Shown one piece after another: positions 3,313 to 30,343 of a DNA stretch of 64,000 nt. Position numbers and translations under genes: made by a program. Each line of letters begins with the position of its first letter. Position 1 is the first letter of the stretch. The stretch spans positions 248,001 through 312,000 of the forward strand of contig NZ_BAABIA010000002.1 in assembly GCF_039542385.1 (NCBI RefSeq), in the 5' to 3' direction. A model generated the notes under the pieces. The model saw only the letters and a list, made by a program, of their open reading frames with translations. It ran no database searches and had not been told where the DNA came from. This DNA is from Prosthecobacter algae. GTDB lineage: Bacteria > Verrucomicrobiota > Verrucomicrobiia > Verrucomicrobiales > Verrucomicrobiaceae.

Positions 3313-3394
3313 GCACCATTTATTTGTTGGACATTCTCCCTCCTGACCCGGTAATCTCAAAAACGCCCCAGAACCCCCGCAGCGCCCATTTTCT

Positions 3395-4672: not shown

Positions 4673-4694
4673 TAACCCTCCATCCCCCCAACCT

Positions 4695-5345
4695 ATGAAA
4701 AGTCATTCCCGGAAGCTTGCCCCGGCAGGCTTTACAGTGATCGAGCTTCTCGTCGTCATCACGATCATCGCCCTTCTCTTTGCCCTGACCATCGGCGGCT
4801 TCACCTATGCCCAAAAATCGGCGGCTCGCAGCCGTACGACGGCGGCCATGAGTGCCATGAAGAGCGCCCTCGAACGGTATAACAACGAGTTTGGTGAATA
4901 CCCTGCCCCGCAGAACCCTGGTGACACGGTTGCTGTTGGCGACAAGACCTATGAAGTTGGTGCCGCAGCCATGCTTTACCAGGCCCTGAGCGGCGATGGC
5001 TACGACAACATCCTCTTGGCTCAGACCCCCAGCAACGGCGGCCCGGCATCATCCGATGGCTCGCTCGATGAGACCGAGTCCAAGAACGTCATGCTCACCG
5101 ACATGCCGAAGGAGTTCTACATCAACCGTGACGGACGCTATTACATGACAGACGGCTTTGGCCGCCCCTTCCAATATGTCAAAGCTGCCCCGCAGGTTGC
5201 AGGTGAGCAACCCACCACCGTCAACTCTACCTATGACCTTTGGTCTTTCGGGGATGACGAAGAAAACACCAGCGCCCGTTCCATCGATACCATTGCACCT
5301 GGAGCCGTCAAAGACGCAAGCCAGCGATGGATCAAGAATTGGTAA
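4695..5345 (+). CDS. GspG-like major pseudopilin
   Basis: 216-aa protein starting at the ATG at 4695, 22 bp after the gspF-like gene. The short basic leader ends in the prepilin peptidase site AG/FTVIELLVV, with Glu at +5 and a hydrophobic helix to about residue 42. The following ARSRTTAAMSAMKSALERY helix and FGEYPAP motif match the GspG N-terminal helix. The C-terminal YDLWSFGDDEE segment resembles the calcium-loop end of GspG (DxWSxG). The middle is longer than in a standard GspG of about 145 aa. Family knowledge: GspG forms the shaft of the type II secretion pseudopilus after cleavage and methylation by a prepilin peptidase, which is not in this window. Confidence 0.85.
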   Translation: MKSHSRKLAPAGFTVIELLVVITIIALLFALTIGGFTYAQKSAARSRTTAAMSAMKSALERYNNEFGEYPAPQNPGDTVAVGDKTYEVGAAAMLYQALSGDGYDNILLAQTPSNGGPASSDGSLDETESKNVMLTDMPKEFYINRDGRYYMTDGFGRPFQYVKAAPQVAGEQPTTVNSTYDLWSFGDDEENTSARSIDTIAPGAVKDASQRWIKNW

Positions 5346-7437: not shown

Positions 7438-8190
7438 TTACTGAACATCGTTGCGCATCGGAGCTTGCTTGAGGGTGCCGTCATCGCCAGTGAAGAAGAC
7501 GACAAGCTGGTCCGCAGGAAACTTGAAGTTGAGCAGGCTAACGGGCTTATTCTGATAGTGCACCTCTGGGAAAGCGCCCATGGCGCGGGTGATGGGAACG
7601 CGCACGGGCTTTGCCGCAGGAACGGTCGCGGGTGTGCCTGAGACTTTGAAGTCCATCTCGTCGGCGGAGGTCAGTTGGACGAGTGTCAAGCTAGGCTGTT
7701 TCAGGTCCGGCGGGCTCGTGGGCGACTGATCCAAGTGCCAGGCAAGACGGGGGCCTTTTTTTTCAGCTTCACCTTTTGCAGGCTTTTTGGTCTTGGGGTC
7801 CAGGGCTGGCTTTTCCGTCATGTAAGCAATGACCGTGGTGATCTGCCCGGTCTGCAACGGAACCTCAAGGGTTTCCTTCCCCAACGTCTCATGTTCCAGT
7901 TCCACCGGATAGGACTTGGGAGCCAGGCCCACAGCTCCCGTAGCATCTCCCTGCTGAAAGCCTGCGGGATCGGCCTCATTGCCATTGATGCGCACCTTCA
8001 GCCTACCGGGCAGGCCGACGGCATTGACCAGCCGGATAAAGGCCAAATCTGGCGGCACCTCTAGGCCTGGGGCCTCCTGGGCCGGCAGCGGAAGCCAGGC
8101 TGTGAGCAGCAAGGCGGCACCCGCAAGGATGAAGCGACGAGATTGAAAGGGGGAGGTTTTCACGAAAGCGTTCATGGCAGATTTCAACAA
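7438..8190 (-). CDS. Small secreted protein at the end of the giant-protein operon
   Basis: 250 aa (245 if the ATG at 8175 is used). A basic, hydrophobic signal peptide ends near LPLPAQ. Residues 45-130 (FIRLVNAVGLPGRLKVRING, then a segment ending in TGQITTVIAYM) resemble the beta-sandwich layout of DUF4397 domains, but weakly. A Lys/Glu/Pro-rich linker follows, then a second domain. It begins 26 bp after cassette gene C and is the last gene of the operon. Its constant company could make it an accessory of the A-D proteins; the function is unknown. Confidence 0.7.
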   Translation of the reverse strand: MLKSAMNAFVKTSPFQSRRFILAGAALLLTAWLPLPAQEAPGLEVPPDLAFIRLVNAVGLPGRLKVRINGNEADPAGFQQGDATGAVGLAPKSYPVELEHETLGKETLEVPLQTGQITTVIAYMTEKPALDPKTKKPAKGEAEKKGPRLAWHLDQSPTSPPDLKQPSLTLVQLTSADEMDFKVSGTPATVPAAKPVRVPITRAMGAFPEVHYQNKPVSLLNFKFPADQLVVFFTGDDGTLKQAPMRNDVQ

Positions 8191-8216
8191 AACAGGGCAG
8201 ACAACGCCGGAGGGAA

Positions 8217-9176
8217 TTACAAGGCGACGGGAGGCAGGCGCAGGCGCATGGAGAAGGTGCGCACTTCAGCATCGTCCTCGTAAACTTCCGGTGTGCCATT
8301 GGTGATGGCTGCCGCACGGACTCCTTCACCGCGCCAATCCTGCGCACTCTTGAGCAAGCGACCCGTCTGCCGATTGGTGACACGCAGGGTGACTTCCACC
8401 CACTTGGGAAGCTGCTCCGTGGGCCAGGGCTGCGGCACCGGCTGGCCAGGCATCAGGCTTTCTAGGGCCTTGCATTCAAAGCGGATGACGTCATGCGCGA
8501 GCACTGCATTGCGGGCTGAAGGAGGAGCTGCCGCAGGGGTCTCTTCTCCCGTGGTGGGTTTGGGCAGACTTTCCAGTTCCTTCCAGTCTTCTTCAAAGAC
8601 CATGGGCTGGCCGCCAATGCGGTGGCCTTCCAGCCTGCGGTAGGTTTCCGCAGGTGAAAACTCGCGGCGCACCAGCTTCTGGCTGCTGGCATCTTCCTCC
8701 ACCCCGCTGGCACCTCCATCGGGCGTAAGGGCGATGCCATAGAGTACCAACTGCAAATCTCCCCGACCACTGTCGGTTCCCTTGCTTGCACGCTTCACAG
8801 TCCGCAAAAAGGCCATTCGCGAAGTGGAGGTGGAAGTAGGCGTGCCTGACTGGAGCAGAAAGCGCATCGGCTGCTTCCCGGCCACCGCCTGCGGATCATC
8901 TGCCAGAGGCCCTCCTGCCGGGATGACAGCAATGGAGGCCAGATCATCCGTCAACAGGCGCAAGGCGGCGCGGCCTTCCCGCTGGCTAGAGAACTGCTTA
9001 TCCTGTTTGGTCCAGGAATCCAGAGTGGCGACCATGCTCTGCATGAGCGCGGTAATGACGATGAAGGCCACCGAGATGGTGACAAGAAGCTCCACCAGCG
9101 AAAATCCACGCGGGGCCGCCACACGCGCAGCAGAGCCAGAAGATAGAGGCGTTTTCTTTTTCAGAGTTCCTCGCAT
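8217..9176 (-). CDS. Verru_Chthon cassette protein C (GspJ-like minor pseudopilin)
   Basis: 319-aa prepilin-like protein. A long basic leader ends at RG/FSLVELLV, with Glu at +5 of the mature form, followed by a hydrophobic helix to about residue 50. The N-terminal helix continues as DSWTKQDKQFSSQREGRAALRLLTDDLASI, which is the kind of sequence seen in GspJ/PilW. I recognise it as cassette protein C of the Verru_Chthon set. The start lies 6 bp after the stop of cassette gene B. Family knowledge gives only its co-occurrence with A, B and D. The GspJ equivalence is my inference from N-terminal sequence and gene order. Confidence 0.82.
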   Translation of the reverse strand: MRGTLKKKTPLSSGSAARVAAPRGFSLVELLVTISVAFIVITALMQSMVATLDSWTKQDKQFSSQREGRAALRLLTDDLASIAVIPAGGPLADDPQAVAGKQPMRFLLQSGTPTSTSTSRMAFLRTVKRASKGTDSGRGDLQLVLYGIALTPDGGASGVEEDASSQKLVRREFSPAETYRRLEGHRIGGQPMVFEEDWKELESLPKPTTGEETPAAAPPSARNAVLAHDVIRFECKALESLMPGQPVPQPWPTEQLPKWVEVTLRVTNRQTGRLLKSAQDWRGEGVRAAAITNGTPEVYEDDAEVRTFSMRLRLPPVAL

Positions 9177-9182
9177 GTTGGA

Positions 9183-9695
9183 TTATTTCGGGCTCAGGGC
9201 GGCGTAACGACGCACCGTGCGAATGGCAGCAGGGGCAGCCGCAGGGGATTCGACACGGATGATGATACGGTCCATGAGCGGATCCTCGGGATTGGGCACA
9301 CGATCAATCCGTGCGAAGGAGGCGGCCGATGCCTGGGAAGCACCGGAGTCATACATTTCCCGCACGCTGCTACCCTCGAAGCGGCTGTGCTCCAAAATCT
9401 TCATGGACTCATCCATGAGCAGGATCACTGGCTGAGGTTCGGCATCGGGCAAGGTGGGTGCCTGCATCTCCCGAATTTCACCTGCCAATTGACGGAGAAG
9501 GACGCCGGAAGTGGTCTCCACCTTGGAATCTTTGGCCACACCGAGGGTACCCATCAGCATGCCAATGATGGCGAGCAGACTGGTGGCGGTGACGGCCACC
9601 GAGAGGATGCACTCGACCAGACTGAAACCTTTGAATGAAGGCCGACGGTGTGTGCGGTTAGCAGACGGAGAAAAAGATGAGAAGTGAACAATCAT
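9183..9695 (-). CDS. Verru_Chthon cassette protein B (GspI-like minor pseudopilin)
   Basis: 170 aa from the ATG at 9695, which overlaps the stop codon of gene D as ATGA and so indicates translational coupling; an upstream in-frame start at 9746 would overlap D by 55 bp and is less likely. The leader ends at KG/FSLVECIL with Glu at +5, followed by a hydrophobic helix (SVAVTATSLLAIIGML). The globular part is short (about 120 aa), as in GspI. It is assigned to cassette protein B by N-terminal pattern, size and position between D and C. Confidence 0.8.
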   Translation of the reverse strand: MIVHFSSFSPSANRTHRRPSFKGFSLVECILSVAVTATSLLAIIGMLMGTLGVAKDSKVETTSGVLLRQLAGEIREMQAPTLPDAEPQPVILLMDESMKILEHSRFEGSSVREMYDSGASQASAASFARIDRVPNPEDPLMDRIIIRVESPAAAPAAIRTVRRYAALSPK

Positions 9696-10387
9696 GGCAG
9701 AATCATGGGGGATCCGGAATTTCGGCGGACGGCGAGCCAGCGGCACTCGTCTGGGCGATGTACCTCGCCTTTTTTCGACAGCGGCCCGCTGGAGCTGGCC
9801 TGGCCTTCCGCGATGGCGATCAACAGCGAGTCCAAAGAATTGGCATCAGCCTCAGGAAACACCACCTCTCCCAGAGATCCAAAACCCACGCAGGGGAGTT
9901 CGACGCTCGGACCATTGCCAGGCAATCTGACACGGCGAGTCGCATTGGGAGCTGTCAGCACGTTGGCGCCCGCATTGGGAGAGGCTGCGCCCACATTGGT
10001 AAAGACATAACCTTGGGGAAGATGGAACCATTCCGAGATAGCGGCATAGTCATCAGGATCCTCCGTGGTGACATCTTCGGCACAAAGAACGACGGAACGA
10101 TAAGGCTCACCTGTGAGGCCGCCATTCACTGTCGCAAAGGCCATGAGAACAGTGCCGTCACCACGCAGTGAACGCGCCCTGGCGAGGTCGCACATGGCGG
10201 TGACCTGATGCATGGCAGTCATGCCCTGGGTGCCGCTGATCGCTCCAGATTTGCCGAGAACGAGACCGATCATGATGGTCATGATGCTAATCACGACGAG
10301 GATTTCCAGCAGAGTGAAACCGCCAGAACGTAGCTTCAACTGACGGAAGGGGCTTTGTCGCCGCATGAATGAGGGGGGGATCAACAT
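9692..10387 (-). CDS. Verru_Chthon cassette protein D (GspH-like minor pseudopilin)
   Basis: 231 aa. The prepilin site is GG/FTLLEILVV with Glu at +5 and a hydrophobic helix to about residue 45. Then comes DLARARSLRGDGTVLMAFAT, resembling the GspH/FimT pattern in which a post-helix Ala/Arg stretch leads into a beta-sheet domain. A C7 run sits at codons 3-5, and a second in-frame ATG (codon 8) lies just after it. The 232-bp gap upstream holds a small hairpin. Its stop overlaps the start of gene B. Confidence 0.8.
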   Translation of the reverse strand: MLIPPSFMRRQSPFRQLKLRSGGFTLLEILVVISIMTIMIGLVLGKSGAISGTQGMTAMHQVTAMCDLARARSLRGDGTVLMAFATVNGGLTGEPYRSVVLCAEDVTTEDPDDYAAISEWFHLPQGYVFTNVGAASPNAGANVLTAPNATRRVRLPGNGPSVELPCVGFGSLGEVVFPEADANSLDSLLIAIAEGQASSSGPLSKKGEVHRPDECRWLAVRRNSGSPMILP

Positions 10388-10524
10388 GGTTTTAAGACAG
10401 CTTTCGTGGTCACTTCAGTTCACTGATAAGTGCTGACGAACAACCAATGCCGTGTGTCAATTTTGTGAGACAAGGGTTGGTTATACCGATTTCCCAATCT
10501 TTGTCTTAAATGATCTGCCGAATG

Positions 10525-10543
10525 AAGAGACTGACGGTCTCTT
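10525..10543 (-). other. Hairpin in the gap between cassette genes A and D
   Basis: Perfect 7-bp stem (AAGAGAC at 10525-10531, GTCTCTT at 10537-10543) with a 5-nt loop, in the 232-bp non-coding gap. There is no T-run on the minus strand. It could be an mRNA-processing or stability element that sets the relative levels of A and D-B-C. The rest of the gap shows nothing else recognisable. Confidence 0.35.
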
Positions 10544-10619
10544 ATCCGCGACCAAGATTGCAAACGGCACTCTTGTCACTTCGGTCAGACGATTTTGGAA
10601 AACGATATGGGCGGTGAAA

Positions 10620-13600
10620 TTAAAGGGCGCGTGAATAAGTTACCTCGACCACCTGGCGTTCCAGGGTGCCATCAGCATTGCGGACAGGCCTAACAAAAAG
10701 ATGATACAGACGCGAGCGGGTGGCCACGACATTTGCCTTGCCATCACGTCCCATCTTGACGGCTTGGCCGCAGACGATCACCTGAAAGTGCCGACTGCGC
10801 ACCGTGCTGTTGTTCCAGAGGCGGCTGAAGAGTTCTTCTGCCGCCGCATCGCTCCATTCCGGGCGCACACGCCGGGGTTCCGCCTCATCCCGCTTGGTGT
10901 AGCCAAAGACGGGCATATTCGCCTCCAGCGGCGGCAGTTCGGGATCTTCTTGTAGGGTCGCCGCATCAGCCTGGGAGAGCACGGCTTTTTCAGCCACTTC
11001 CGCCGGGGTAACATAAGGACGGTTCTGGATGATGGCCGAAGCGATAATGTCCGCCTGCGCCTTGGTTCGGCTGGTGGAGGCAGGCAGCAGGACGACGGGC
11101 TTCTCGGCGGTGGGTTCGGCATCGTTGCTGTCTTTTTTGAGCAAGGGATCCGAAGACAGCCTGCCCGCGATGAGTGCCCGCAGCGTTTCGCGGCTGGCCG
11201 TGTTGACATTCACATGACCATCAATGCGCACGAGCGGCCCGGTAATGCGCGCAGCCTCGAGGGAGTTGCTGTCCCCACAATGGAACAGGTCTAACAAAGA
11301 GGAGGATGCCAGCCCGCGATGGACGGGGCGACCCGAATCCGGCTGCGCGCGATAGTCAGGACGGAAGAGGCTGTGCTCCATACGGCCAATGCGTAGCGTG
11401 TTGCCACCGCAGAATCGTTTATGGGCATCAAGTTCGTTGGAGCTGGGATCAATTTTAACCTCACCTGGCCGGATGTCGGCATGCTCATCATATTCAAGGA
11501 GGTCGCCCTTGGGCATGTTGGAGTCGCTCCAGGTGGTGCCACGGGGGCTCCACATGACGGGATCGAAAATGTGCCCCAGTTCGGTGGTGCTGTAAAAGCG
11601 TCCGGCATTGGAAATGCGCTGCACAAACTTCTGCCGTTCCGCCAGGCTGTTGGTGGGATTGACAGGCGATTGCATGGTGATGTCATCCGGATTTCGGTCG
11701 AAAGAGCCGATGCGTGTGGGGCAAGGGAGGCTGTTGTGACCGCCATCGGGCCAGAGGTAAGTGCGCGACTCCCCGGCCAAGTTTTCAAAGCGGCGGAAGT
11801 TGCGGCCCCAGGGGCTGGAACCGTCATCGTAGTCAATGACTTCCTGATGATAGTCAATATAGTAGGCAGCGCGGGTATCGCCGACATTGAAGGCCCAGTC
11901 TTTGTCGCGCAGGCGGTAGGAGAGCCCAGGCTGGTTGACATTGAACCGCTGGCGCACACTGAGGTTGGAACTCATCTGATAACGTTCCAGCGGAGCAAAG
12001 GGCATGTCCACGACGGTGTAGTCGGTGGTGCCGGATGGGCGGAAGGCGAGACGATAACGACTTTCGCGGTCATCGTTGCCGTTGGCGGGCTGGCCAAAAT
12101 ACTGCACCCCGGTGACATTGCCCTCAGCACCACCATCCAGCTTGAATCGCACGGGATCAAAGGCGATGACACGGATTTCGTTAGGCTTGAGGGTGATGGT
12201 CTGTGGAGTGAACCACAGCCCGTTCAACCCGGAGATTTCCTCAGGCTTGCCGGAGACAGTCAGGCCGAGTGAGGACATGACGGGGTAGCTGCGTAAGCCC
12301 ACGGAGAAACGACCGCGATATTCAAAGCAGCAAGTTATCTCACCCGTGATCTCTTGGTTCGTCGGATTCCAGAGTTCCACATAGTCGGTCAAGGAACATT
12401 CCACCTCACGTGAGAGGAAACGCTCGAACCGATGGCGTTGCCAGTATTCGTTCACCAGGGGGTGGGCGTCGGTTCCCCGGTACTCAATGTTAGCTTCGTC
12501 CGATTCGCTGCCAGCGCCGCCGAAAGCGACGTTGATGGAGGGGAGGGCATCTTTGTCCGCATAATCGATCATGCCTGCTGCCAAGTTTTTGAGGTAGGCC
12601 ATCTGGTGTTCATCACGCTGGGTGAGCGCCACCCGGCGAGGCAGCGTGTATCCGCCCCCACGTTGGCTGAATTCTGGTAGATAACGGTCAATGTGCCTGG
12701 CCATACGATCCACCTCCGTGGACATGGTGTTATGGGTCGTGGGGCCCACGTCCGCGCCGATCTTGTTCAAGACCTCGTTGAGATTGATCTTGCGCTCGCC
12801 GCCGTAGGCGAAGCCTGGTCCATGAGGCACGAGGGCGAGTTCATCATAGGGAGCAAGGTAACCGGTGGTGTTTTCCTCAAGCGCCCGCAGTTGCTCATCA
12901 ACCAGGGAGCCATTGGCAAGACGGGCCGTCGGGCCACTCAACCGCGCCGGGTCCAGGCCGGGCCAGTCCGTGAGAGGATCGGGCGCGATCAGCAATTCCC
13001 GCCACATGTCTGGACTGAAAGAGAGACGCTTGGAATTGATGGCGGTCAGCCGCCTGTGCATGGCATTGATGCTCTGGGGGGTGCCGCCGGAGGTGAGTGG
13101 CTCCACATCCGGTCGCAGGAGAGTCCAGACGGAAGAGGGGCTCCGCCGCCAGCGGCCACCGGGATCAATGAACAGGCCTGGCACAAAAGGAACCGGCCCG
13201 GGCACCACTTCATTCACCAAGTCAGTGGCGTGATAAGGCAGGTCCTTGTCGCGATCATGGATGCCCGCATTGGCCAGGCTGAGCTTGCCCTGTAGATCCT
13301 CCACATAGAAGGAATAACGGGCGACCAATTTCTCCTCACCTTCCTCTCCCTCAGCCGAGTCTTCACCTTCCGACTCAGATTTTCCAGGGTCTGAAGGGAG
13401 GCGAAGCTGCATCCAATAACGAGGGACACGGGCCATCCAAGGGGCCGGTGCAGGAAGCTTTCGCGCCTCTAATTCGCTGGCCTCCACTGAAGGTCCGACG
13501 GCGGGATCCGTGGAAGGTTTCTTTTCAAACTCGGAAGCCGGCATTTGCAACTTGTCACCCGCTGGCGGGCTGGCCACCCCTGAGGCCAGGGGCTGGTATT

Positions 13601-14015
13601 TCCACTGCTTGGCCGTGGCATCGTAGTTGGCCACCATGAGCATTTCGCGCGGGCGTTGCTTCTCATCCAGCGCTGGCGAAAGGGGGGCGGAAAAGACCAC
13701 CCCCAGCTCATCGGCCAAGGCCCCTTGCAGGATGAGACCGACACGGTCGAGCCCGGATTGCACGGCAAGATCTGCCTGCTCCACGGCATCGTAGCTGGCG
13801 GAGGTCTGACTTTCACGCGAGACAATCCCGTAGAGACCCACCACCAGGATGGTCACTGCGGCGAGGATGACCAAGGTCACCACCAGGGTAAAACCCCGCC
13901 TCGGAGGGCGACCGGGGCCACCCCCATCACCATTCAATGTTAGACTTCGCAAGCAGTGCGCGGCGGCAGTACCTGAAGGATGACCAAGAGGAACGTGGGG
14001 GGGGGAAGTAAACAT
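10620..14015 (-). CDS. Verru_Chthon cassette protein A (GspK-like)
   Basis: 1131-aa protein with a prepilin-type N-terminus after a long basic leader: PPRRG/FTLVVTLVIL, with Val instead of Glu at +5. That substitution is the hallmark of GspK in type II secretion. Other GspK-like signs are the segment YSFYVEDLQGKLSLANAGI near residue 230 and, near residue 980, HVNVNTASRETLRALIAG, which corresponds to the INVNTAxxxxLxAL signature of GspK. Between them is a very long insertion, so it is about three times the usual GspK length. The gene starts 9 bp after the 2939-aa giant protein. A C9 tract covers codons 4-7 and a C6 tract lies just upstream of the ATG. The name 'cassette A' is family recognition; the GspK role is inference. 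Confidence 0.82.
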   Translation of the reverse strand: MFTSPPHVPLGHPSGTAAAHCLRSLTLNGDGGGPGRPPRRGFTLVVTLVILAAVTILVVGLYGIVSRESQTSASYDAVEQADLAVQSGLDRVGLILQGALADELGVVFSAPLSPALDEKQRPREMLMVANYDATAKQWKYQPLASGVASPPAGDKLQMPASEFEKKPSTDPAVGPSVEASELEARKLPAPAPWMARVPRYWMQLRLPSDPGKSESEGEDSAEGEEGEEKLVARYSFYVEDLQGKLSLANAGIHDRDKDLPYHATDLVNEVVPGPVPFVPGLFIDPGGRWRRSPSSVWTLLRPDVEPLTSGGTPQSINAMHRRLTAINSKRLSFSPDMWRELLIAPDPLTDWPGLDPARLSGPTARLANGSLVDEQLRALEENTTGYLAPYDELALVPHGPGFAYGGERKINLNEVLNKIGADVGPTTHNTMSTEVDRMARHIDRYLPEFSQRGGGYTLPRRVALTQRDEHQMAYLKNLAAGMIDYADKDALPSINVAFGGAGSESDEANIEYRGTDAHPLVNEYWQRHRFERFLSREVECSLTDYVELWNPTNQEITGEITCCFEYRGRFSVGLRSYPVMSSLGLTVSGKPEEISGLNGLWFTPQTITLKPNEIRVIAFDPVRFKLDGGAEGNVTGVQYFGQPANGNDDRESRYRLAFRPSGTTDYTVVDMPFAPLERYQMSSNLSVRQRFNVNQPGLSYRLRDKDWAFNVGDTRAAYYIDYHQEVIDYDDGSSPWGRNFRRFENLAGESRTYLWPDGGHNSLPCPTRIGSFDRNPDDITMQSPVNPTNSLAERQKFVQRISNAGRFYSTTELGHIFDPVMWSPRGTTWSDSNMPKGDLLEYDEHADIRPGEVKIDPSSNELDAHKRFCGGNTLRIGRMEHSLFRPDYRAQPDSGRPVHRGLASSSLLDLFHCGDSNSLEAARITGPLVRIDGHVNVNTASRETLRALIAGRLSSDPLLKKDSNDAEPTAEKPVVLLPASTSRTKAQADIIASAIIQNRPYVTPAEVAEKAVLSQADAATLQEDPELPPLEANMPVFGYTKRDEAEPRRVRPEWSDAAAEELFSRLWNNSTVRSRHFQVIVCGQAVKMGRDGKANVVATRSRLYHLFVRPVRNADGTLERQVVEVTYSRAL

Positions 14016-14024
14016 CCGGGGGGA

Positions 14025-17000
14025 TTATTTTTCAATCAGCAGGGAGGAAGTTCGGAACTGACCTTTCTTGCCAGGGACAGGCACGCGGATGAGACCGGCA
14101 CCGACCGTTTCACCTGAAGGAAGGCCCTGAAGAAGGACCGCACTGGCCGCCGCTTTACCGGCCAGGGTGCCATCACTGGCTGGCAGTGTGAGCGTGCCGG
14201 TGAGGCTGCCATCGGCCTTGTTGACCTTGCCCGTCCATGCGGCGGGAGGTCCACTGACCGGGGCCGAGGTCGTCAGGGAAAAGTTAGAAGCGAGCGTGAA
14301 AGCAGTGGGCAGGACGATGGGCACACCGGTGGTGCTGCTGAGGCCCGCGCCCTCGATTTCCACATTCAAGGTCGAAGCCGTCAGGCCCAGGGCGGTTTCC
14401 AGCTCCGTGGTTGTTTTGACGGTATCGAATGCCGCCGCGACAGGCGTGACTGGCAGCGGGGCTGCAAAGCCTGCATCATAGCTCAGTTCTTTGGCATCGG
14501 CGGCCTTGAACCACCAAGTGCCAGGCACAAGCTGCTCGATGGTGGCTTCCGGCTGCCCCAAGTTTGGCAGCGGCATGACGCCGCCAAAGTAGGAGTCCAC
14601 CTTGTTTTTATAAGGCTGGGTCCAGACGAGGGCCTGACCAGTCACGCCCAGATTGGCCGTAAGGACAAGGGCCTGAGTGTCTCCCAACTGGCCTTTGAGA
14701 GAGACAGCGCCTTTGGTGGTGACGGAGCCCTTTGCCCAACCGAACCCGGCGGGGTATGCCACGCCATCCTGCACGCCTGCATCCAGAACGAGGTTCAGCT
14801 TACGAATGGCGGGTGGGCTGCCGCCCAGAGAAGCGAGGCGGAAGCCACGCAGGTCGCCAGTCACCGTTCCAGAAGCAAAGGTACCCGTCACCAGTGCGGA
14901 CTCCGCATTGATGGTCACAGTGACATTGGCCTGTGGGACAGTCGCAGAACCCTTGAAGACCATTTGGATTTCAGCCCGCTGACGGCCGGGGACCAACACA
15001 AAGCTGCCTGTGCCGGCACGGCGGCCCTGACCGATGACTTCTAAAGATCCCGTCCACAAGCTAGGCCGCGTCGCGGTCAGCCGCAGGATGCCTTTGGGCA
15101 GGCCATTGGCATCCACCAGCAGTGCCTCATAACTGGCGAGCAGACGAGCAGGGAATGCCTCGACCGTGAGCTGCAGGTTAAAGGATTTGAGCGGGATGGT
15201 TCCCTGCATGACCAGCAATTGCAGATCATAAAGCGACGCTGTGCCAGTAAGCACACCGCTGAGGCGGCCCGTGATTGCATTGAACGTTAGGCCAGCCGGT
15301 AGACGGCCCACGATTTTCAGCGTCTGACCTGCGGAAGCAAAAGCACCGAGATTCAGGTCCACATAGTCACCGACGCGCAGCAACGTATTGTCCCCGATGC
15401 CGAGAAGGACTTCCTCGATATCAGTGAGGCCGTCGCCATCGCTGTCGGCTCCGGTCACCGGTGGCACTGTATCCGCCCGCACGTTCACGTTCTGCGTCCT
15501 CGTGTCCTGCTGCGCTCCGCTCTCTTCCACTCGGTACGCCTGCGCCAAGTTCCCATGACGGTTCTGCACATGCTCCGCCAACGATTCCTGCTCGCTCAGT
15601 CCATTGACCGGCACCTGGGCGACGGCTGCAAAGTCCAGCCCTTCGGACACCACTGCTCCCAGCGTTCCGTCTCCCAGCACATACCGGAAGTTTTCTCCGT
15701 TCGCTTTCATCGGGTACCCGGCTTCGCCATTCGCCAGGCCGTTCAATGTCACCACCTGGATCACCGAGGGTGCTCCGGGTAGTAGTCCGCTGCCCAGGTT
15801 CCCTGCTTTGTAGATCGGTGTTCCGGCGCTCCCGTCATCCTTCAGCAACGCGATCGACAGCACCCGCGATCCCACCGCCAAGTCTGGATCCCACGCGAAC
15901 TGCACCCCGCCCAACTGTGGGAACTGCGCCTGATTGGTCCCCTGCGACACGCCGTGTTCAAGGATCGCCTTCAGCCCTGCGGGTGTCGTTTCAAACACCA
16001 TCAGCTTCTGGTTCCCTCTCAATGCGTTTTCGATGTCCAGCTTCGAGATCGCTCCCGCTGGTTTGCCGACGGCTGCATTGGCCAACGTCGGGCCTTTTTC
16101 GGCCACGCCTCCCTGGCCGTTGATCGATCCCACCGGACCTGTGATGCCTCCGGCGTGCTTGAGCGATACGATGGCTTCGCTCCCTCCCACGATTTCTCTC
16201 ACCGCCTGCTGGTTGGCATCGGTCACCAGGTTCCCCAGGTTTGTTTCCTGGCTGCGCACGTTCGGGGCTGCTCCTTCCAGATACACAGCACTGTAGCCAT
16301 ACACGATGCTGTCCTTCGCTGTCATCACGGCCTGCACGGCATCGGTCACCTGCTTCACCTGCGCGCCTTTGGTTCCGGCAGCGAAGGCTGTTGTTGTGAG
16401 GTTGGCTTCCGTCACTCCCCAGGCGGCGGCCACATTGGCTGCCGTCGCAGCAAAGGCACCGTTTTCAGGCAAGCGGTCCGGCAGCGAGCTGGTGATCAGC
16501 CTTCCTTCCAGGTCGAAGTCCACCACCAGGCGGCCCAGGTAGCTGTATTCGCTGTCGGTATTGACGATGAGCAGCGGGGTGCCGTTGCGGTCTTCGGCCA
16601 GCAGCGGGTAGGTGTCTTCAAAGGTCGCCTCGTGGCCAGGGAAGACCACGGCGGTGTCGTCGCTGTCGCCCAGGCGGGTTTCGGATCCGGCGGCCACGAT
16701 GATGTCCACGTCGGCCAGTTTCACGGCCAGGGCGCGTTCCAGGGCCAGGTCGTTGAGGTGGGACAGCAGCACGATCTTGCTGACGCCTTCGCTGCTCAGC
16801 TCGTTGATGCTGGGCTGGATCTGCGCGGCGAGGACATCGAGGTTCACGGCGTTGCCGCCTTTGACCACGGTGCCTTCCAGGTTGGTCAGGGAGGCGAGCA
16901 ACTGGGTGGTGACGCCGATCAGGCCGATTTTTTCACCGCCTTTGTTCACCACGGTCACGGGCACCAGGCGGCCCTTCACGGAGGAAGCTTCGGGCACGGG

Positions 17001-22844: not shown

Positions 22845-22885
22845 CTTTCAGGAGATTCAATAAAGGGTTGGTGGTCAGCAAAGGA

Positions 22886-25800
22886 TCAGCGTTGCAGCAG
22901 CAGGGACGCGGTTCGGAATTGCCCTTTCTTGCCAGGCACAGGCACACGGACGATGCCGCCGCCGACAGTGCCATCCGTCAGGCCACGGAGGAGGATGCCT
23001 GTCGCGGCCGCCTTGCCTGGGAGGGTGTTTGCACTGGCTGGCAAAGTCAGCGCGCCGGTGAGGCCGCCGTCCGCCTTGTTAATCTTGCCTGTCCATGGGA
23101 CAGGGGGGCCATTGACCGGAGCAAAGGTCGTCAGCGAGAAGGTCGTGGCCAGCTTGAAAGCGGTTGGCAGGACGATCGGCACTCCGGTGGTGGAGCTCAA
23201 GCCAGCGCCCTCTATTTCCACATTCAAGGTCGAAGCCGTCAGGCCTAACAGCGTCTCAAGCTCGACTACGGTTTTCACAGGATCGAAAGCCGTGGCGATG
23301 ACACTGACAGGCAGAGGGGCTGCAAAGCCGGTGTCGTAGCTCAACTCCTTGGCATCTGCCGCTTTGAACCAGATGGTGCCGGACTCCAAAGCCGGCGTCA
23401 TGGCCGCAGGCTGGCCGACATTCGGCACAGGCAACACACCGCCAAAGTAAGAGTCCACTTTGTTTTTGTAAGGCTGCACCCAGGCCAGGGACTGGCCGGT
23501 CACACCGAGGCGCAAGGAGAGCGTCATCTTCTGTCCATCGCCCAATTCACCCGCCAGGTTCACGGCACCCTTGTTTGTCACCGTGCCTTTGGCCCAGCCT
23601 AGGCCAGCCGGATAGGCCACACCATCCTGGGTGCCAGCATCCAGCACCACATTCATGCGGCGAGTCGTCGGTGGGCTGGCCCCGAAGGTGGCCATGCGCA
23701 TGCCACGCACAGCACCATTGGAAGCGGTGCCGGCATGCGTGCCAGTCACCTGCGGGCTGTCAATGTCCAGAATCATCTGCACCGTGACTTCTGGCGTGGT
23801 GCGGCTGCTCTTGAAAACCATCGGCAGGCTCACCTGACGGCTGCCCGACATCAGTTCAAAACTTCCCTTCGAGGAACGGCGGGCCGTGCCGCGCAGATCC
23901 AGTGTGGCAGACCACAGACCCGACTGTGTCACTGTCACCCGCACGATGCCCTGAGGCAGATCCGTGGCCGTTTCCAGCAAAGCTTCATAGCTACCGAGCA
24001 GACGGGCAGGGAAGGCCTCGACAACCAGAGGCACAATGATCGTCTTGACGATCTTGCCACCGACCAGTACCTGCAGTTGCAGATCATAAAGTGCGGCGGT
24101 TCCACCGAGTACACCTGTGAGGCGACCCGTGGTTGCATTGAATGTTAGTCCTGGCGGCAGGCGACCCACCATCTTCAGCGTCTGGCCAGCCTGAGCATAC
24201 AGACCCAGGTTCAAATTCACCCGTTCACCCACCCGAAGACGTGTGGTGGGATTTCCTCCCAGCATGATTTCCTCGATATCAGTGAGGCCGTCGCCATCGC
24301 TGTCGGCTCCCGTCACCGGTGGCACCGTATCCGCACGCACGTTCACGTTCTGCGTCCTTGTGTCCTGCTGCGCTCCGCTCTCTTCCACTCGGTATGCCTG
24401 CGCCAAGTTCCCATGACGGTTCTGCACATGCTCCGCCAACGATTCCTGCTCGCTCAGTCCATTGACCGGCACCTGGGCGACGGCTGTATAGTCCAGCCCT
24501 TCGGACACCACCGCTCCCAGCGTCCCGTCTCCCAGCACATACCGGAAGTTTTCTCCGTTCGCTTTCATCGGGTACCCGGCTTCGCCATTGGCCAAGCCGT
24601 TCAATGTCACCACCTGGATCACCGAGGGTGCTCCCGGCAGCAGTCCGCTGCCCAGGTTCCCTGCCTTGTAGATCGGTGTTCCGGCGCTCCCGTCATCCTT
24701 CAGCAACGCGATCGACAGCACCCGTGATCCCACCGCCAAGTCTGGATCCCACGCGAACTGCACCCCGCCCAACTGTGGGAACTGCACCTGATTGGTCCCC
24801 TGCGACACGCCGTGTTCAAGGATCGCCTTCAGCCCTGCGGGTGTCGTTTCAAACACCATCAGTTTCTGGTTCCCTCTCAATGCGTTTTCGATGTCCAGCT
24901 TCGAGATCGCTCCCGCTGGTTTGCCGACGGCTGCATTGGCCAACGTCGGGCCTTTTTCAGCAACGCCTCCCTGGCCGTTGATCGATCCCACCGGACCTGT
25001 GATGCCTCCGGCGTGCTTGAGCGATACGATGGCTTCGTTCCCTCCCACGATCCCTCTCACGGCCTGCTGGTTGGCATCGGCCACCAGGTTCCCCAGGTTC
25101 GTTTCCTGGCTGCGCACGCTCGGGGCTGCTCCTTCCAGATACACGGCACTGTAGCCATACACGATGCTGTCCTTCGCTGTCATCACGGCCTGCACGGCAT
25201 CGGTCACCTGCTTCACCTGCGCGCCTTTGGTTCCGGCGGCAAAGGCGGTTGTTGTGAGGTTCGCCTCGGCCACGCCCCAAGCAGCGGCCACGTTGGCGGC
25301 GGTTGCGGCATACGCACCGTTTTCGGGCAGCCGGTCTGGCAGCGAGCTGGTGATCAGCCTGCCTTCCAGGTCGAAGTCCACCACCAGGCGGCCCAGGTAG
25401 CTGTATTCGCTGTCCGTATTGACGATGAGCAGCGGCGTGCCGTTGCGGTCTTCGGCCAGCAGCGGGTAAGTGTCTTCAAAGGTCGCCTCGTGGCCAGGGA
25501 AGACCACGGCGGTGTCGTCGCTGTCGCCCAGGCGGGTTTCGGATCCGGCGGCCACGATGATGTCCACGTCGGCCAGTTTCACGGCCAGGGCGCGTTCCAG
25601 GGCCAGGTCGTTGAGGTGGGACAGCAGCACGATCTTGCTGACCCCTTCGCTGCTCAGCTCGTTGATGCTGGGCTGGATCTGCGCGGCGAGGACGTCGAGG
25701 TTCACGCTGTTGCCGCCTTTGACTACGGTGCCTTCCAGGTTGGTCAGGGAGGCGAGCAGTTGGGTGGTGACGCCGATCAGGCCGATTTTTTCACCGCCTT

Positions 25801-28800
25801 TGTTCACCACAGTCACGGGCACCAAGCGGCCCTTCACGGTGGAGGCTTCCGGCACGAGGCTGTCGTCGGTGTCCAGCGGGATGGTGGTCACCAGCCCGGA
25901 GAGCTGGCTGTCGGCGCTGAAGTCGAGGTTCAGGGACAGCAGCGGGAACTGGGCGCCCACCCAGGCACCGGCGGGCTGCAGGGCATTGGCCAGGACGGCG
26001 GAGCCGAGGTCCCATTCGTGGTGGCCGAGGATGGCGGCTTCCACACCGATGAGGTTGTGGATGGCGAGGTCCGGGCGACCTGTGGCGGTGGCGGCGACGG
26101 AGGCCACGGCGTTGAGGGCGGGGTCTGCCCCGGCGCTGAGAAAGGAGCCGGGCAGGAAGCTGTCGCCACCGGAGACGATCAGGGTGTTGGCGTAGTCCTG
26201 GTCAAAGGCATCCACCAAGGCGGCGAGGTTCGGCGCTGTTTGCGGGGCTAGCAAGCTGCCCTGTGCATCCGAGAAGTGCAAGAGCTGCAGGGTGTATGAT
26301 ACCGGCACGGTGGCTGCACCACGGCCAGGGGAACCGATATCGGTCGCACCCGGCGCCTGGAAAGCCTGATAAGTGCCGACACGAGCCGACACGTAACGAG
26401 GAGAAATGACGCCCGAAGGCACATCCCAGACGAGCGCATCCGTCGTGGCACCGCCACCCGAAACACCCGCGTGACCACCCAGCGCAGCCGAGCCATCCGG
26501 CCGCAGGAAGCCCTGTGCCGCGTAGCTAACAAAAAACAGTTCACGGCCCGTATTATCAAACAAGGCAATGCCATCATTCTGGCCCAGCCCTGGAGCATCC
26601 ACCGTCTGCACGACCTGCACCGTGGGCTCCAGCCCCCACCAAGTGCGGAAAGCGGCCGGATCTGCCGTGGTAATGATGATGGACTCACCCGCAGCGATGC
26701 TGGTTCCGTTCGGGAATGCCCAAGCCTGACCTTCCACAAAAGAGCGGCTTTCATCATCCCAAGTGTAGCCACTCAGGTTGACTGTGGCTGTTCCATGATT
26801 GGTCAGTTCCCAATAGTCTGCCGCGCCGAGAGCATCCGAAGGGCTGGAGTGAATCTCGGTAACAAAGAGTGTGGGCGGAGCCACGTCACCATCGTCTTGG
26901 ACGGAGAGGGTGGCAGAGGCCAAGGACACACCCGGAGCCGTTGCAGTCAGCAAGACCTGCTGAGTGCCATCTGCAAGAATGTCATTCACGGCGCTGACCT
27001 CAAAGGTGGCAGCAGACTGCCCAGCTTGAATGACTACGGACACTGGCACGGTCGCTTCAGAAGCATCGCCAGAAACGATTTGGACGGTGAGATCAGCCGC
27101 CACATCGCCATAACGCTCGACGGTCCCGACAGCGGCAGCCGCACCTGCACCTTCACTGAAAGTGGCAGGTGCAACCTTCAGCAGCAGCAATGTCGCAGGA
27201 TCGACGCCTGTGCCACCGGAGCCGCCTGGGGAACCCACATCGGTTCCCGCGGAGGCCTGAACGCCACCATTCACGCCCGAACTGGCGGCCATGTAACGAG
27301 GCAATCCACGACCCGAGTTTGGATCCCAAACCAAGGCTTCCGTGGCCAAACCGCCGGCCGAGGCCCCCGCATGGCCGCCGAGGGATGGCTGACCATTGGA
27401 ACGGGTGAACCCGCCTGCGGCATAACTGAAGTAAAAGACCTCAGCACCGGCACTGTCGTAAAGCACAACGCCATCATTCAGTCCCAAACCAGGAGCCCCG
27501 ACAGACTGCAGAACGCGGGTGGTCGGTGGCAGGCCCCACCAAGTTCTAAACACAGCGGAATCTGCCGGAGTGAAGACGATCGATTCACCTGGGGCGAGGC
27601 TGGTGCCTTCAGGGAAAGCCCAGGCAAGAGCAGCATTGCGATTGCGACCGGAATCATGCCAGGTGTATCCAGCCAGGGAGATGGTGGTGGAACCAAAATT
27701 GGTCAGCTCCCAATAGTCACCCACTCCCACAGGAGCGGTGCCAGAAGGATTCGAATGCAACTCCGTCAGCAGAAGATCTGAAGGCGTGATGACGGTGATG
27801 TTCACCATTTGTGCAGCGACGGCACCATCGTCATCGGTAGCAACAGCCCGGATCACACGCGTACCAGCCTGGGCTGGAGACCACAGGAACTGATAAGGTG
27901 CGCTAGTCAACTCGGCCAGTTTGGTTTCGTCATCGAAGAACTCCACCTTCACGACATTGCCGTCCAGGTCACCAGCGGTGGCGGAGATCAGAATCGGCGT
28001 TGCACTGCGGAATACTTGATTGGACTTGGGCGTGTTAAGGACCAGTGAAGGGGCCTGATTCGTCAGTGGTGCGCCGGCTACCCACAGTGGCTGCCAGCCT
28101 GCGACCGGCAGGCCACCTCCGTCTACGGGGCCTCTCACCTGACCGACAAGGCCATCCACCGAACTGGTGACATTGACACCTGTGGCTTCATCCAGACCGA
28201 AACGCCCCACCAGACCAGCAGCCGTGACCACCGAGGAATCTTTCGTCGAAGCAATGTCTGCCGCACTGCGGGCATAGTTCCACACACGCACCTCATCAAT
28301 GGCCCCAAAGAAGGAGCCTGCGCGCTGGCCGGCTGTGTTCAACGCCGCTCCGATGGCGAACCGATGATTGCTGTCATAACGTGGCATGGCACCAGGGGGG
28401 GTGCTGCGGGTGGCGACTTGCACACCATCCAAAAAGAGCTTCCAGCCACCAACTTCGCCATCGTAAGTCACCGCCGCGTGGTACCAGCGCCCATCCTGAA
28501 CAGGCTCATGCGTACCGAAGATCGGGAAGTTTGCCCCGCCAGCGACCACTCCCGGTGTCGGGAAAGCCTCGAAGTCGGCGCATAGCAGGCCATCTTGCGT
28601 GATGCCAACCAGATAGTTCGTATCCGTGTTGTTGTTGTCGGACTCACCGCGCCCCTTGGCAAAAAGCGGCTGCACCACAATCCCGCCCACACCGGAACTG
28701 GCCGTGGCCCCAAGACCCTCCTTGCGGAACCAGCATTCGAGCGTCAGCCCTTTCGTTGGAGGACCGCCCACGCCCAGTTGCGGAGCTGGATTGGTCGCCA

Positions 28801-30343
28801 CATGCTCCACCAAGCCGTCGAAGAACAATGCCGTTTGAATCGGGGGGTTGACCGGATCCATCTGTACTACAGCCGTCACAGGCGAACTGCGGGGAGCCAG
28901 GCCGTCATTGTCCGTGGCGCGTGCCGTATAAATATAACGGCCACCGGCAAGATCTGTCTCCTGGACGGAATAAGGGGCCTCAGTATCCACCCCAATGTAG
29001 GTGCCGTTCCGGAAGAACTCCACCTGGGCCACATTGCCATTAAAGTCAGAGGCATCGGCCGTCACCGCGAAGGTAGCAGGACTGGTATAGACCTGCCCCT
29101 CCGTCGGTGAGGTCACAAACACTTCAGGCAGGACAGGGGCGGCAAAAAATGCAAAGCTGAACATGTCCTCTTTAGCGGCTGCACCGCCCTGGAGCACAGG
29201 CAGAGTCGAATCATTGATGATGTCCCGGCTCTCAATCACATACCGGCTGTTCGCCGCATCCCACTGATAGGACACGATGTTGTCCATGTTGTTCAAGGCA
29301 CCGCCTTCGGGACTGATGAGCAGCGTCCCTGTGGCCGGGCTGCCTCCGGTAATCTTCAGATACCACCGCCCGTCTACAGTGACACCGTCAACAACGCTCC
29401 TTTCAATCTGAAAAACACCCCCAGCAACATCGGTGGTTGCGTCATTGTTCACACGGCCCAGCGCCAGCAAGCCATCCGTGCCCACCTTGTTCACCGGCAA
29501 ATAGACAAAGGTCACAGGGTCTTGCTCCGTCTCAGGACGGGCGAGACTCGGACTACTGGTACCGTTGTCACGGATGTGAAGACGCCAGTTGACCGGCTCT
29601 CCCGTAATTTCGTCATTCTGCACCACAGAGGAGGCGTAATTGTCCTCGTTTTTGGCATGGTTCACCAGCACGATGCCATTGGCAGGCGTGGCGGTGGGAT
29701 CCACCGTGCGCAGGTCCAACTGAGTCACCCCAGAACCGATGTCAACGAGGTTGGCACTGAGACCCAGGCCCGGACTGCCATTGAAACGGTTCAGTGGCAG
29801 GCCATTGCCGCGGTCGCCGATCCACCCCGTGCCTCCCAGCCACTTGTCATAAGGGAAGTAACCAAAAGAGACGTTTGCATTGACCTCCGAACCCTGCGCG
29901 GCCCGCGCCATGGCGAAGAAATATGCAGTCGGAGGATCTGTCCCCGTCGCCGTAGCCACTGAAACGGTGGGATAAAAAATGCCGAATGCATCGCCCACAG
30001 AACTGTTGTCGCGACCATTTTCAGACACGGAAGCGATGAGAGTCCCTGAGGTAAAATCGTTCTCATTGAGAAAGCTGATGCCGTAATCCCCACGATTGGA
30101 GGCAAAAGTCACCGGCTCCCAGCGCAGCGTGCTGCCAGGGCCACGGGTCATCGTGATCGAGGTAGTCGTGTTCAGGTTGTCATTCTGGCGGATCTGCAAA
30201 GTGCCAAACTGCGTGGATGGCGGCGGCGGCAGATCCTGAGCCACCGAAGATGATGGCAACAAAGCCAGAAGGACTGCCATCGCCAGCCAGAAGGCAAGGC
30301 ATACACGGGTTTCAGCAGCGATCGAAGTTCTTGGGGGGCTCAT
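22886..30343 (-). CDS. Giant secreted multidomain protein with 5'-nucleotidase-like module (2485 aa)
   Basis: Paralogue of the next gene and probably first gene of the operon. Signal peptide to about residue 35 (SSSVAQ). Modules: shared N-terminal domain 36-400; Ig-like 401-498; LamG-like 500-745; Ig-like 763-852; LTD 853-1030; Calx-beta-like 1044-1155; LTD 1155-1340; 5'-nucleotidase-like 1350-2012; calcium loop DSDGDGLTDIEE; putative Ig fold 2034-2115; conserved C-terminal module to 2485. It lacks the choice-of-anchor I propeller found in the 2939-aa protein: the second LTD passes straight into the phosphoesterase. It carries the same altered metal-site motifs (DAQG, GHHE, GSET). Separated by 41 bp from the downstream giant gene. 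Probably exported across both membranes; function unproven. Confidence 0.85.
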   Translation of the reverse strand: MSPPRTSIAAETRVCLAFWLAMAVLLALLPSSSVAQDLPPPPSTQFGTLQIRQNDNLNTTTSITMTRGPGSTLRWEPVTFASNRGDYGISFLNENDFTSGTLIASVSENGRDNSSVGDAFGIFYPTVSVATATGTDPPTAYFFAMARAAQGSEVNANVSFGYFPYDKWLGGTGWIGDRGNGLPLNRFNGSPGLGLSANLVDIGSGVTQLDLRTVDPTATPANGIVLVNHAKNEDNYASSVVQNDEITGEPVNWRLHIRDNGTSSPSLARPETEQDPVTFVYLPVNKVGTDGLLALGRVNNDATTDVAGGVFQIERSVVDGVTVDGRWYLKITGGSPATGTLLISPEGGALNNMDNIVSYQWDAANSRYVIESRDIINDSTLPVLQGGAAAKEDMFSFAFFAAPVLPEVFVTSPTEGQVYTSPATFAVTADASDFNGNVAQVEFFRNGTYIGVDTEAPYSVQETDLAGGRYIYTARATDNDGLAPRSSPVTAVVQMDPVNPPIQTALFFDGLVEHVATNPAPQLGVGGPPTKGLTLECWFRKEGLGATASSGVGGIVVQPLFAKGRGESDNNNTDTNYLVGITQDGLLCADFEAFPTPGVVAGGANFPIFGTHEPVQDGRWYHAAVTYDGEVGGWKLFLDGVQVATRSTPPGAMPRYDSNHRFAIGAALNTAGQRAGSFFGAIDEVRVWNYARSAADIASTKDSSVVTAAGLVGRFGLDEATGVNVTSSVDGLVGQVRGPVDGGGLPVAGWQPLWVAGAPLTNQAPSLVLNTPKSNQVFRSATPILISATAGDLDGNVVKVEFFDDETKLAELTSAPYQFLWSPAQAGTRVIRAVATDDDGAVAAQMVNITVITPSDLLLTELHSNPSGTAPVGVGDYWELTNFGSTTISLAGYTWHDSGRNRNAALAWAFPEGTSLAPGESIVFTPADSAVFRTWWGLPPTTRVLQSVGAPGLGLNDGVVLYDSAGAEVFYFSYAAGGFTRSNGQPSLGGHAGASAGGLATEALVWDPNSGRGLPRYMAASSGVNGGVQASAGTDVGSPGGSGGTGVDPATLLLLKVAPATFSEGAGAAAAVGTVERYGDVAADLTVQIVSGDASEATVPVSVVIQAGQSAATFEVSAVNDILADGTQQVLLTATAPGVSLASATLSVQDDGDVAPPTLFVTEIHSSPSDALGAADYWELTNHGTATVNLSGYTWDDESRSFVEGQAWAFPNGTSIAAGESIIITTADPAAFRTWWGLEPTVQVVQTVDAPGLGQNDGIALFDNTGRELFFVSYAAQGFLRPDGSAALGGHAGVSGGGATTDALVWDVPSGVISPRYVSARVGTYQAFQAPGATDIGSPGRGAATVPVSYTLQLLHFSDAQGSLLAPQTAPNLAALVDAFDQDYANTLIVSGGDSFLPGSFLSAGADPALNAVASVAATATGRPDLAIHNLIGVEAAILGHHEWDLGSAVLANALQPAGAWVGAQFPLLSLNLDFSADSQLSGLVTTIPLDTDDSLVPEASTVKGRLVPVTVVNKGGEKIGLIGVTTQLLASLTNLEGTVVKGGNSVNLDVLAAQIQPSINELSSEGVSKIVLLSHLNDLALERALAVKLADVDIIVAAGSETRLGDSDDTAVVFPGHEATFEDTYPLLAEDRNGTPLLIVNTDSEYSYLGRLVVDFDLEGRLITSSLPDRLPENGAYAATAANVAAAWGVAEANLTTTAFAAGTKGAQVKQVTDAVQAVMTAKDSIVYGYSAVYLEGAAPSVRSQETNLGNLVADANQQAVRGIVGGNEAIVSLKHAGGITGPVGSINGQGGVAEKGPTLANAAVGKPAGAISKLDIENALRGNQKLMVFETTPAGLKAILEHGVSQGTNQVQFPQLGGVQFAWDPDLAVGSRVLSIALLKDDGSAGTPIYKAGNLGSGLLPGAPSVIQVVTLNGLANGEAGYPMKANGENFRYVLGDGTLGAVVSEGLDYTAVAQVPVNGLSEQESLAEHVQNRHGNLAQAYRVEESGAQQDTRTQNVNVRADTVPPVTGADSDGDGLTDIEEIMLGGNPTTRLRVGERVNLNLGLYAQAGQTLKMVGRLPPGLTFNATTGRLTGVLGGTAALYDLQLQVLVGGKIVKTIIVPLVVEAFPARLLGSYEALLETATDLPQGIVRVTVTQSGLWSATLDLRGTARRSSKGSFELMSGSRQVSLPMVFKSSRTTPEVTVQMILDIDSPQVTGTHAGTASNGAVRGMRMATFGASPPTTRRMNVVLDAGTQDGVAYPAGLGWAKGTVTNKGAVNLAGELGDGQKMTLSLRLGVTGQSLAWVQPYKNKVDSYFGGVLPVPNVGQPAAMTPALESGTIWFKAADAKELSYDTGFAAPLPVSVIATAFDPVKTVVELETLLGLTASTLNVEIEGAGLSSTTGVPIVLPTAFKLATTFSLTTFAPVNGPPVPWTGKINKADGGLTGALTLPASANTLPGKAAATGILLRGLTDGTVGGGIVRVPVPGKKGQFRTASLLLQR
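24269..26296. repeat. 2-kb near-identical direct repeat, copy 2 (in the 2485-aa gene)
   Basis: Partner of the block at 15411-17438, same orientation, 2028 bp, no net insertions or deletions. Outside the block the two genes are clearly homologous only at protein level, so the block is younger than, or has been homogenised since, the gene duplication. Confidence 0.93.

Follow-up and report, generated by a model that had tools for sequence, protein, structure and literature searches.

The 64,000-nucleotide stretch analysed here (C2:248001-312000 of a 6.12-Mb genome; hereafter the window) comes from a bacterium whose genus we take to be Prosthecobacter-like. It carries a run of seven genes on the minus strand, from position 30343 to 7438, in which two genes for giant proteins are followed by a set of four minor-pseudopilin-like genes (A, D, B and C) and a small gene, X. 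A preliminary description of the locus had claimed this one-directional run, with the giants first and the pseudopilin-like genes after them, and had proposed that each such set is a tip selecting its own giant for a shared secretion machine. The claimed layout was confirmed, including gaps of 41, 9, 232, -4, 6 and 26 bp, given a start of B at its inner ATG. The features are listed below with protein lengths in amino acids (aa).

Giant 1, 22886..30343, minus strand: predicted exported protein of 2,485 aa; Big_7, LamG, two LTD, a 5'-nucleotidase-like region with 5_nucleotid_C, and a C-terminal domain
Giant 2, 14025..22844, minus strand: predicted exported protein of 2,939 aa; paralogue of giant 1 with an additional choice-of-anchor-I domain
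A, 10620..14015, minus strand: 1,131 aa; GspK/PilX-type pseudopilin without glutamate at position 5 (Glu5) and with a large insertion
D, 9692..10387, minus strand: 231 aa; GspH-like minor pseudopilin
B, 9183..9746, minus strand: GspI/PilV-like minor pseudopilin; 187 aa from GTG, 170 aa from an inner ATG (codon 17)
C, 8217..9176, minus strand: 319 aa; GspJ/HpsC-like minor pseudopilin (J by position, not by score)
X, 7438..8190, minus strand: 250 aa, TTG start; predicted exported protein, fifth constant member of the window cassette family
Filament machine genes, 32..5345, plus strand: two GspE/PilB ATPases, GspF/PilC and a GspG-like pseudopilin

With the GTG start of B, the gap between D and B is -55 bp; a start at the ATG of codon 17 reduces the overlap to 4 bp. 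A single transcript for the seven genes is plausible. The 232 bp that separate A from D are room enough for a second promoter, and a simple sigma-70 scan of positions 7100-11000 detected no promoter.

Identity of the minor-pseudopilin-like proteins

Relatives of the set fall into two cassette families, the window type and the canonical type, the latter being the Verru_Chthon A-D cassette. D, B, C and A each have a prepilin-type N-terminal segment; prepilin sites, like the signal peptides, PEP-CTERM tails and GYFLL tails called outside the family searches, were recognised with our own patterns. Glu5 was present in 17/17 D, 16/18 B and 20/20 C homologues where a site was found, and was absent from every A in which the site finder recognised one (81 canonical and 45 window-type; 4 canonical and 11 window-type homologues had no recognised site). 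GspK and PilX also lack Glu5, according to part of the text of PMC7541494. Among the family models, the NCBIfam GspK model matched 14 of 16 A homologues and the GspH model 13 of 21 D homologues, B homologues matched XpsI (10/21) and GspI (2/21), and C homologues matched HpsC (11/20), GspI (7/20) and GspJ (4/20). The window proteins themselves matched these pseudopilin models near the N-terminus, all below the curated cut-offs (29.6 of 130 bits for GspK, 27.4 of 80 for GspH), and A also matched PilX_N just under its cut-off. When profiles of the four proteins were compared with solved structures, the matches were weak or restricted to the pilin N-terminal region.

A predicted structure of A gave chain T of 9a1f, an Xcp pseudopilus, as its best VIA-align row (Z 8.7, root-mean-square deviation 4.6, 219 residues spanning 42-1131), a chain that by its length would be GspK. 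Part of the insertion of A, around residues 506-734, is rich in beta structure. The operon order of the type II secretion system (T2SS) is gspH-I-J-K. Given the Glu5 pattern, the model matches and the structural row of A, the four proteins look like a GspH-I-J-K-like minor-pseudopilin set with an enlarged K, in keeping with the class originally proposed for the small genes. Four observations stand against the details of this assignment. The model of A was of modest confidence (pLDDT 58.5); its Z of 8.7, with the next row at 5.9, lies close to the values of 7 to 8 that unrelated models often reach; Foldseek alone returned no match for it at E 0.001; and the reading of B and C as I and J, respectively, rests on gene order, C homologues matching GspI more often than GspJ.

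X is the constant neighbour in the window-type family

A profile search found relatives of the window A in 43 of the 189 genomes of the order, and the named matches belonged mostly to Verrucomicrobiaceae and Akkermansiaceae. Twenty places from those genomes and 37 named loci were fetched, 57 in all, which after merging of duplicates and addition of the window gave 53 distinct A loci; L085 was excluded from the 20, as ORF picking (ORF, open reading frame) had taken another frame over its A gene. For counts of gene order, each segment was assigned to its best-scoring model. The order D-B-C-A-X was found in 40 of the 53 loci and A-D-B-C-X in three, and ten loci were incomplete (AX in four, CAX and DBCA in two each, BCAX and DCAX in one each), seven of these with A near a contig end. 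X was present in 37 of the 38 loci whose flanks extend 2.5 kb or more to either side. It encodes an exported-looking protein, mostly of ~225-310 aa, with a weak match to DUF4397 in 3 and to PEGA in 3 of 16 members, and no ORF of the canonical or control loci matched it at E 0.001.

A giant lay directly before A in three of the 53 loci: the window, G029 (counted in the same genus as the window genome; sampled as L073 and L092) and G076 (L072, where only the last 533 aa of the giant are on that contig). These are exactly the three loci in which A comes first. The idea that giants are the standard partner throughout this family was therefore rejected; its constant neighbour is X. With giants in 3/53 loci and unlinked relatives elsewhere, the giants look like a recent, local addition and X like the old, ancestral partner.

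Elsewhere among the 38 loci with full flanks, four had an ORF reaching 1,500 aa on the same strand and inside 8 kb, in a place other than before A. One of these four is in G113 (L078, positions 1-4674, minus strand), where the ORF looks exported, measures no less than 1,558 aa and lies 479 bp after the second of two X genes; it could be another recruited partner. A gene of 574 aa on the opposite strand occurred near the window-type cassette in L081, L084, L085, L088, L096 and L105, and its starts in the first four of these loci read as one family.

Giant and PEP-CTERM genes upstream of canonical A genes

Canonical A genes (TIGR02600) occurred in 120 of the 189 genomes, and a first look at three genomes of genus g3 gave 38 to 41 unscored cassette candidates each. 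No more than three candidates were scored in any genome. Eighty loci, hand-picked mostly from the top of the match list, together with three loci of the window genome yielded 85 canonical A genes; they represent 55 genomes, and a single genus contributes 41 of the 85. Giants clipped at the ends of the fetched stretches make the sizes lower limits.

Directly upstream of A, the ORF on the same strand reached 2,000 aa in 34/85 cases and 1,000 aa in 43/85. In 20 random 20-kb control loci of related genomes, the upstream same-strand neighbour reached 1,500 aa in 0 of 257 cases and 1,000 aa in three, and 3 of these 20 loci nonetheless contained an ORF reaching 2,000 aa. For the other ORFs of the cassette loci the corresponding counts, which include A itself, were 1/706 (at least 2,000 aa) and 69/706 (at least 1,000 aa). 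All 34 giants belonged to family f1 (genera g1, g3, g5 and g7), where they preceded 34 of 63 A genes, and were spread over 11 of 41 A clusters. PEP-CTERM tails were recognised in 34/85 upstream genes, including 26 of the 34 giants, vs 5/274 control ORFs; nine further upstream genes of at least 900 aa ended in a GYFLL-type tail. The remaining upstream neighbours of the 85 comprised 8 prepilin genes (order D-B-C-A), 9 opposite-strand genes and 24 others, with none seen in one case. The proposed association of giants with cassettes is thus supported by a strong enrichment in the canonical family (34/85 vs 0/257) and is not supported for the window family, where giants precede A in 3/53 loci and X is the fixed neighbour.

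Seven canonical partners were scanned for families. Three contained PATR/TIGR02601 repeats, one He_PIG and one a solute-binding-like domain; of the other two, one matched PEP-CTERM models only and one had only a sub-cut-off match to a T5SS/PEP-CTERM repeat. No PilY1 family or autotransporter barrel family was found in the seven. At C5:93399-111053 of the window genome (L018/L019), a canonical cassette has, between its B and A genes, one for a protein of 5,884 aa whose N-terminus resembles a signal peptide; cut by the stretch end, it was counted as 1,533 aa among the 85. A partial TIGR02600 match at C11:141624 of the window genome was left out of the cassette count, no pseudopilin gene being seen beside it within the stretch retrieved.

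Co-inheritance of A and its partner

Nineteen close cross-genus pairs were defined by an A score of at least half the self score. In 15 of them both sides had a partner no shorter than 250 aa, and the partners were homologous in 15/15; the four pairs left out were three involving L150, whose upstream gene is of 138 aa, and one partnerless on either side. Genes of the outer flanks were homologous in 2 of the same 19 pairs. The 15 pairs represent three A lineages, with giants of 2,433-2,491 aa (three genera), partners of ~815 aa (two genera) and partners of ~285 aa (two genera). At A scores of 0.35-0.5 of the self score, partners matched in 16/29 and outer genes in 0/44 comparisons; at two still weaker levels, partners matched in 22/157 and 19/1,008 and outer genes in 6/393 and 14/2,210. 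Among pairs of A paralogues within one genome, the partners had no match in 14/24 and scored 46-150 bits in 10/24. The tree of A was built from a fast, crude alignment and serves for orientation only. For the most part, then, the type of partner tracks the type of A across genera (15 of 19 pairs), which supports the preliminary description in part; partner turnover in one A clade speaks against tight coupling.

Domain content and relatives of the giants

Both giants have signal-peptide-like N-termini, as read by eye, and share Big_7, LamG, LTD and a 5'-nucleotidase-like region with 5_nucleotid_C; choice-of-anchor-I is present in giant 2 only. They look like large extracellular proteins of the phosphatase or nucleotidase type, which would be catalytic. 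Residues 14-1263 of giant 1 are 53% identical to giant 2, and residues 1349-2484 are 84% identical, a difference suggesting that the nucleotidase and C-terminal part was recently duplicated or underwent gene conversion. A PEP-CTERM tail (PEP motif, membrane helix and basic tail) is absent from both giants, which end in GKKGQFRTASLLLQR and GKKGQFRTSSLLIEK, and the genome has two exosortase matches. The family scan of the giants found neither a PilY1 family match nor an autotransporter barrel family. The predicted structure of their C-terminal domain (pLDDT 44.5) was too poor for judging the fold. This domain carries no family name, and some other proteins of the genome that contain it have a GYFLL-like ending; it may be a general surface-sorting module. 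The N-terminal domain of the giants occurs in 26 of the 189 genomes. In G029 (L092), a third giant-family gene of 2,014 aa lies just past X on the opposite strand.

Neighbouring machine genes

Genes for ATPases, a platform protein and a pseudopilin lie on the other side of the run, on the plus strand at 32-5345, about 2 kb away as had been described. The interval 5345-7438 holds a UbiE methyltransferase gene and one ORF without a family match. The two GspE/PilB-type ATPases (32-3278, plus strand), each with MshEN domains, lie in tandem and precede GspF and the GspG-like gene; one scores best with PilB and the other with GspE. A tie between the cassette and these GspE/F/G genes was rejected, as the pairing is absent in the fetched relatives: among the ORFs of the 57 window-type and the canonical loci there was one GspG-like match, at a place sampled twice (L088/L098). 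The genome as a whole has seven secretin matches, several GspF proteins, six strong GspE/PilB ATPase matches and, counted by A genes, four cassettes.

A putative neighbour-binding tip and its alternatives

The order partner, A, remaining pseudopilins is common to two diverged cassette families. Since partner and A are adjacent in both, a neighbour-binding tip is the simplest reading: the D/B/C/A cassette would bind its neighbour and help to export or display it by a machine encoded elsewhere, a proposal we judge about evenly poised between right and wrong. In such a system, D, B, C and A would cap and start a type II-like pseudopilus as its GspH, I, J and K class subunits, with A as the outermost subunit whose large extra domain most likely binds the exported protein. 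X would be the ancestral exported partner in the window family; in a small Prosthecobacter-like group, where A stands first in the set, two nucleotidase-like giants would have been recruited just upstream, which gives the arrangement seen in many canonical cassettes with large PEP-CTERM partners. Each tip would help its neighbour to cross the outer membrane or be displayed beyond it, presumably by way of the pseudopilus, and several tips might share one machine encoded away from the cassettes. The PEP-CTERM tails, as far as sequence patterns go, favour anchoring after export. In a wider form, the proposal would describe a multi-tip type II system of Verrucomicrobia in which each HIJK-like cassette loads the adjacent surface protein, in many cases a PEP-CTERM giant, onto common machinery, supplies the outer-membrane step for PEP-CTERM proteins and gains new cargo before A, as would have occurred in the window; this generalisation is tentative, and we hold it to be rather doubtful.

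A number of observations weigh against a neighbour-binding tip. Contrary to the expectation that giants are the usual cassette neighbours, they were not seen before A in 50 of the 53 window-type loci (14 of the 50 have less than 2.5 kb on one or both sides), and an upstream ORF of at least 2,000 aa is lacking at 51 of the 85 canonical A genes (50 with the C5 gene of the window genome complete) and at all 22 outside f1. Partners are not always retained: the 138-aa gene of L150 replaces a partner of ~815 aa in one of four clade members, and in the C8-type clade of the window genus the upstream genes of six A genes have no mutual BLAST match, so that one canonical A clade swaps partners. Relatives of the giants also occur away from cassettes. 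The C-terminal domain has 12 further matches in the window genome, none close to a cassette, and a third member of the giant family on C6 of that genome has no A found there. Nine genomes of family f2, presumably Akkermansiaceae-like, contain both A and a giant relative in unlinked positions (different contigs or 2 Mb apart, by coordinates), and G128 has two giants in a row with no A match at 1e-10.

Several of these observations suit a neighbourhood that is due to chance or regulation, in which a promoter or site is shared, export is unconnected, and the giants leave by a general route that recognises their C-terminal domain. The 12 other places of that domain, the unlinked giant relatives, the 3/53 window-type loci with a giant before A, the partner turnover in one clade and the 22 canonical A genes outside f1 without giants would all be expected. 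What such a neighbourhood leaves unexplained is the placing of giants before A in two diverged cassette families, the enrichment of 34/85 vs 0/257 in the canonical family, and the retention of partners across genera where outer genes are not retained, and we consider it unlikely. Even if the neighbour-binding proposal is wrong, the order partner-A-rest in two diverged families calls for explanation.

The set may alternatively be a pilus tip of the PilVWX-PilY1 kind, on which the giant or X is kept as an adhesin at the far end of a filament and is neither released nor anchored to the cell. In Myxococcus xanthus, according to part of PMC7541494, three clusters, each of PilY1 and four minor pilins, serve a single type IVa pilus machine; the PilX_N match of A, just under the cut-off, and the better score of one adjoining ATPase with PilB, the other scoring better with GspE, point the same way. 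The absence of PilY1 families from the giants and the seven scanned canonical partners argues against an adhesive tip, as do the PEP-CTERM-like tails of many partners, a better fit to cell anchoring, and the T2SS chain as best structural row of A; this option seems to us distinctly unlikely. Self-export of the giants through a C-terminal barrel would make them autotransporters, in line with the PATR repeats, of autotransporter type by the TIGR02601 name, in three of the seven canonical partners. Most large partners instead end in a PEP-CTERM-like or short GYFLL-type tail, and no known barrel family was found in the giants or the seven partners; the C-terminal model of the giants was too poor to speak for or against a barrel of a new kind. 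The autotransporter reading was set aside as scarcely credible.

A neighbour-binding tip, if correct, would give the unexplained Verru_Chthon cassettes a function and a reason for their multiplication. It would also offer PEP-CTERM proteins a route over the outer membrane, a step left open in the available part of their 2006 description (PMC1569441), and would bring the idea of exchangeable tips, familiar from type IV and Tad pili, into type II secretion.

Comparison with known systems

The Verru_Chthon cassette is named in NCBIfam, and no paper on it was found by its name or accessions in the open PMC literature. Titles and abstract beginnings from topic searches of that literature contained no description of the cassette, and the terms 'PEP-CTERM' and 'pseudopilin' never stood together in the papers from one topic search. 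Another verrucomicrobial genome has 67 homologues of one pulG-like pseudopilin, and export of alginase by its T2SS was suggested, both according to parts of PMC13274419. Three things appear to be new here: HIJK-like sets are linked to giant and PEP-CTERM neighbours, X is a constant member, and giants go together with an order in which A comes first.

HpsC belongs to the cyanobacterial hormogonium polysaccharide secretion system. The window C matches HpsC over 60 residues near its start, below the curated cut-off, and the likeness extends to the 11 of 20 C homologues that match the model. The set resembles GspH-I-J-K of the T2SS (XcpU-V-W-X) in its subunit classes, its Glu5 pattern, its commonest gene order and, tentatively, the structural match of A to a GspK-sized chain. 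It differs in that the window A is three to four times longer than 9a1f chain T, and in that the cassettes are separate from machine genes in relatives, multiple within a genome and accompanied by a gene for an exported protein.

Surface proteins with MYXO-CTERM or GlyGly-CTERM sorting tails cross the outer membrane by the T2SS, as stated in sections of PMC11980579 and PMC3237569. The MYXO-CTERM tail resembles the PEP-CTERM tail of the canonical partners; the window giants are without such a tail, and a dedicated tip cassette for each protein is not described in those sections. Exchangeable minor-pilin tips on one machine are known from the type IVa pili of Myxococcus (PMC7541494) and from Kil/Tad pili (PMC12075869), and PilY1 is treated as an analogue of T2SS substrates in PMC7541494, to judge from parts of both papers. 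The minor-pilin/PilY1 clusters of M. xanthus and the tips of its Kil system share with the present cassettes a large, variable partner or domain and, if the machine is common here too, several tip sets per filament machine. Unlike these cassettes, they belong to type IVa or Tad pili, and the place of the nucleotidase-like giants, or of giants with beta repeats and PEP-CTERM, is taken by PilY1 or a modular minor pilin.

A close relative is the Verru_Chthon A-D cassette (TIGR02600, TIGR02598, TIGR02599 and TIGR02596), likewise a large A with three adjacent prepilin-like genes and, in many loci, a partner before A. The window proteins match the N-terminal parts of these families and miss every curated cut-off (21.9 of 332.3 bits for A, 24 of 51.4 for B, 27.6 of 256.5 for C and 23.9 of 70 for D). 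The window family is commonly arranged as D-B-C-A-X with X fixed, and X was not found in the canonical loci examined. Since all four scores fall below the cut-offs, the window set is, judged by sequence, a sister cassette of Verru_Chthon.

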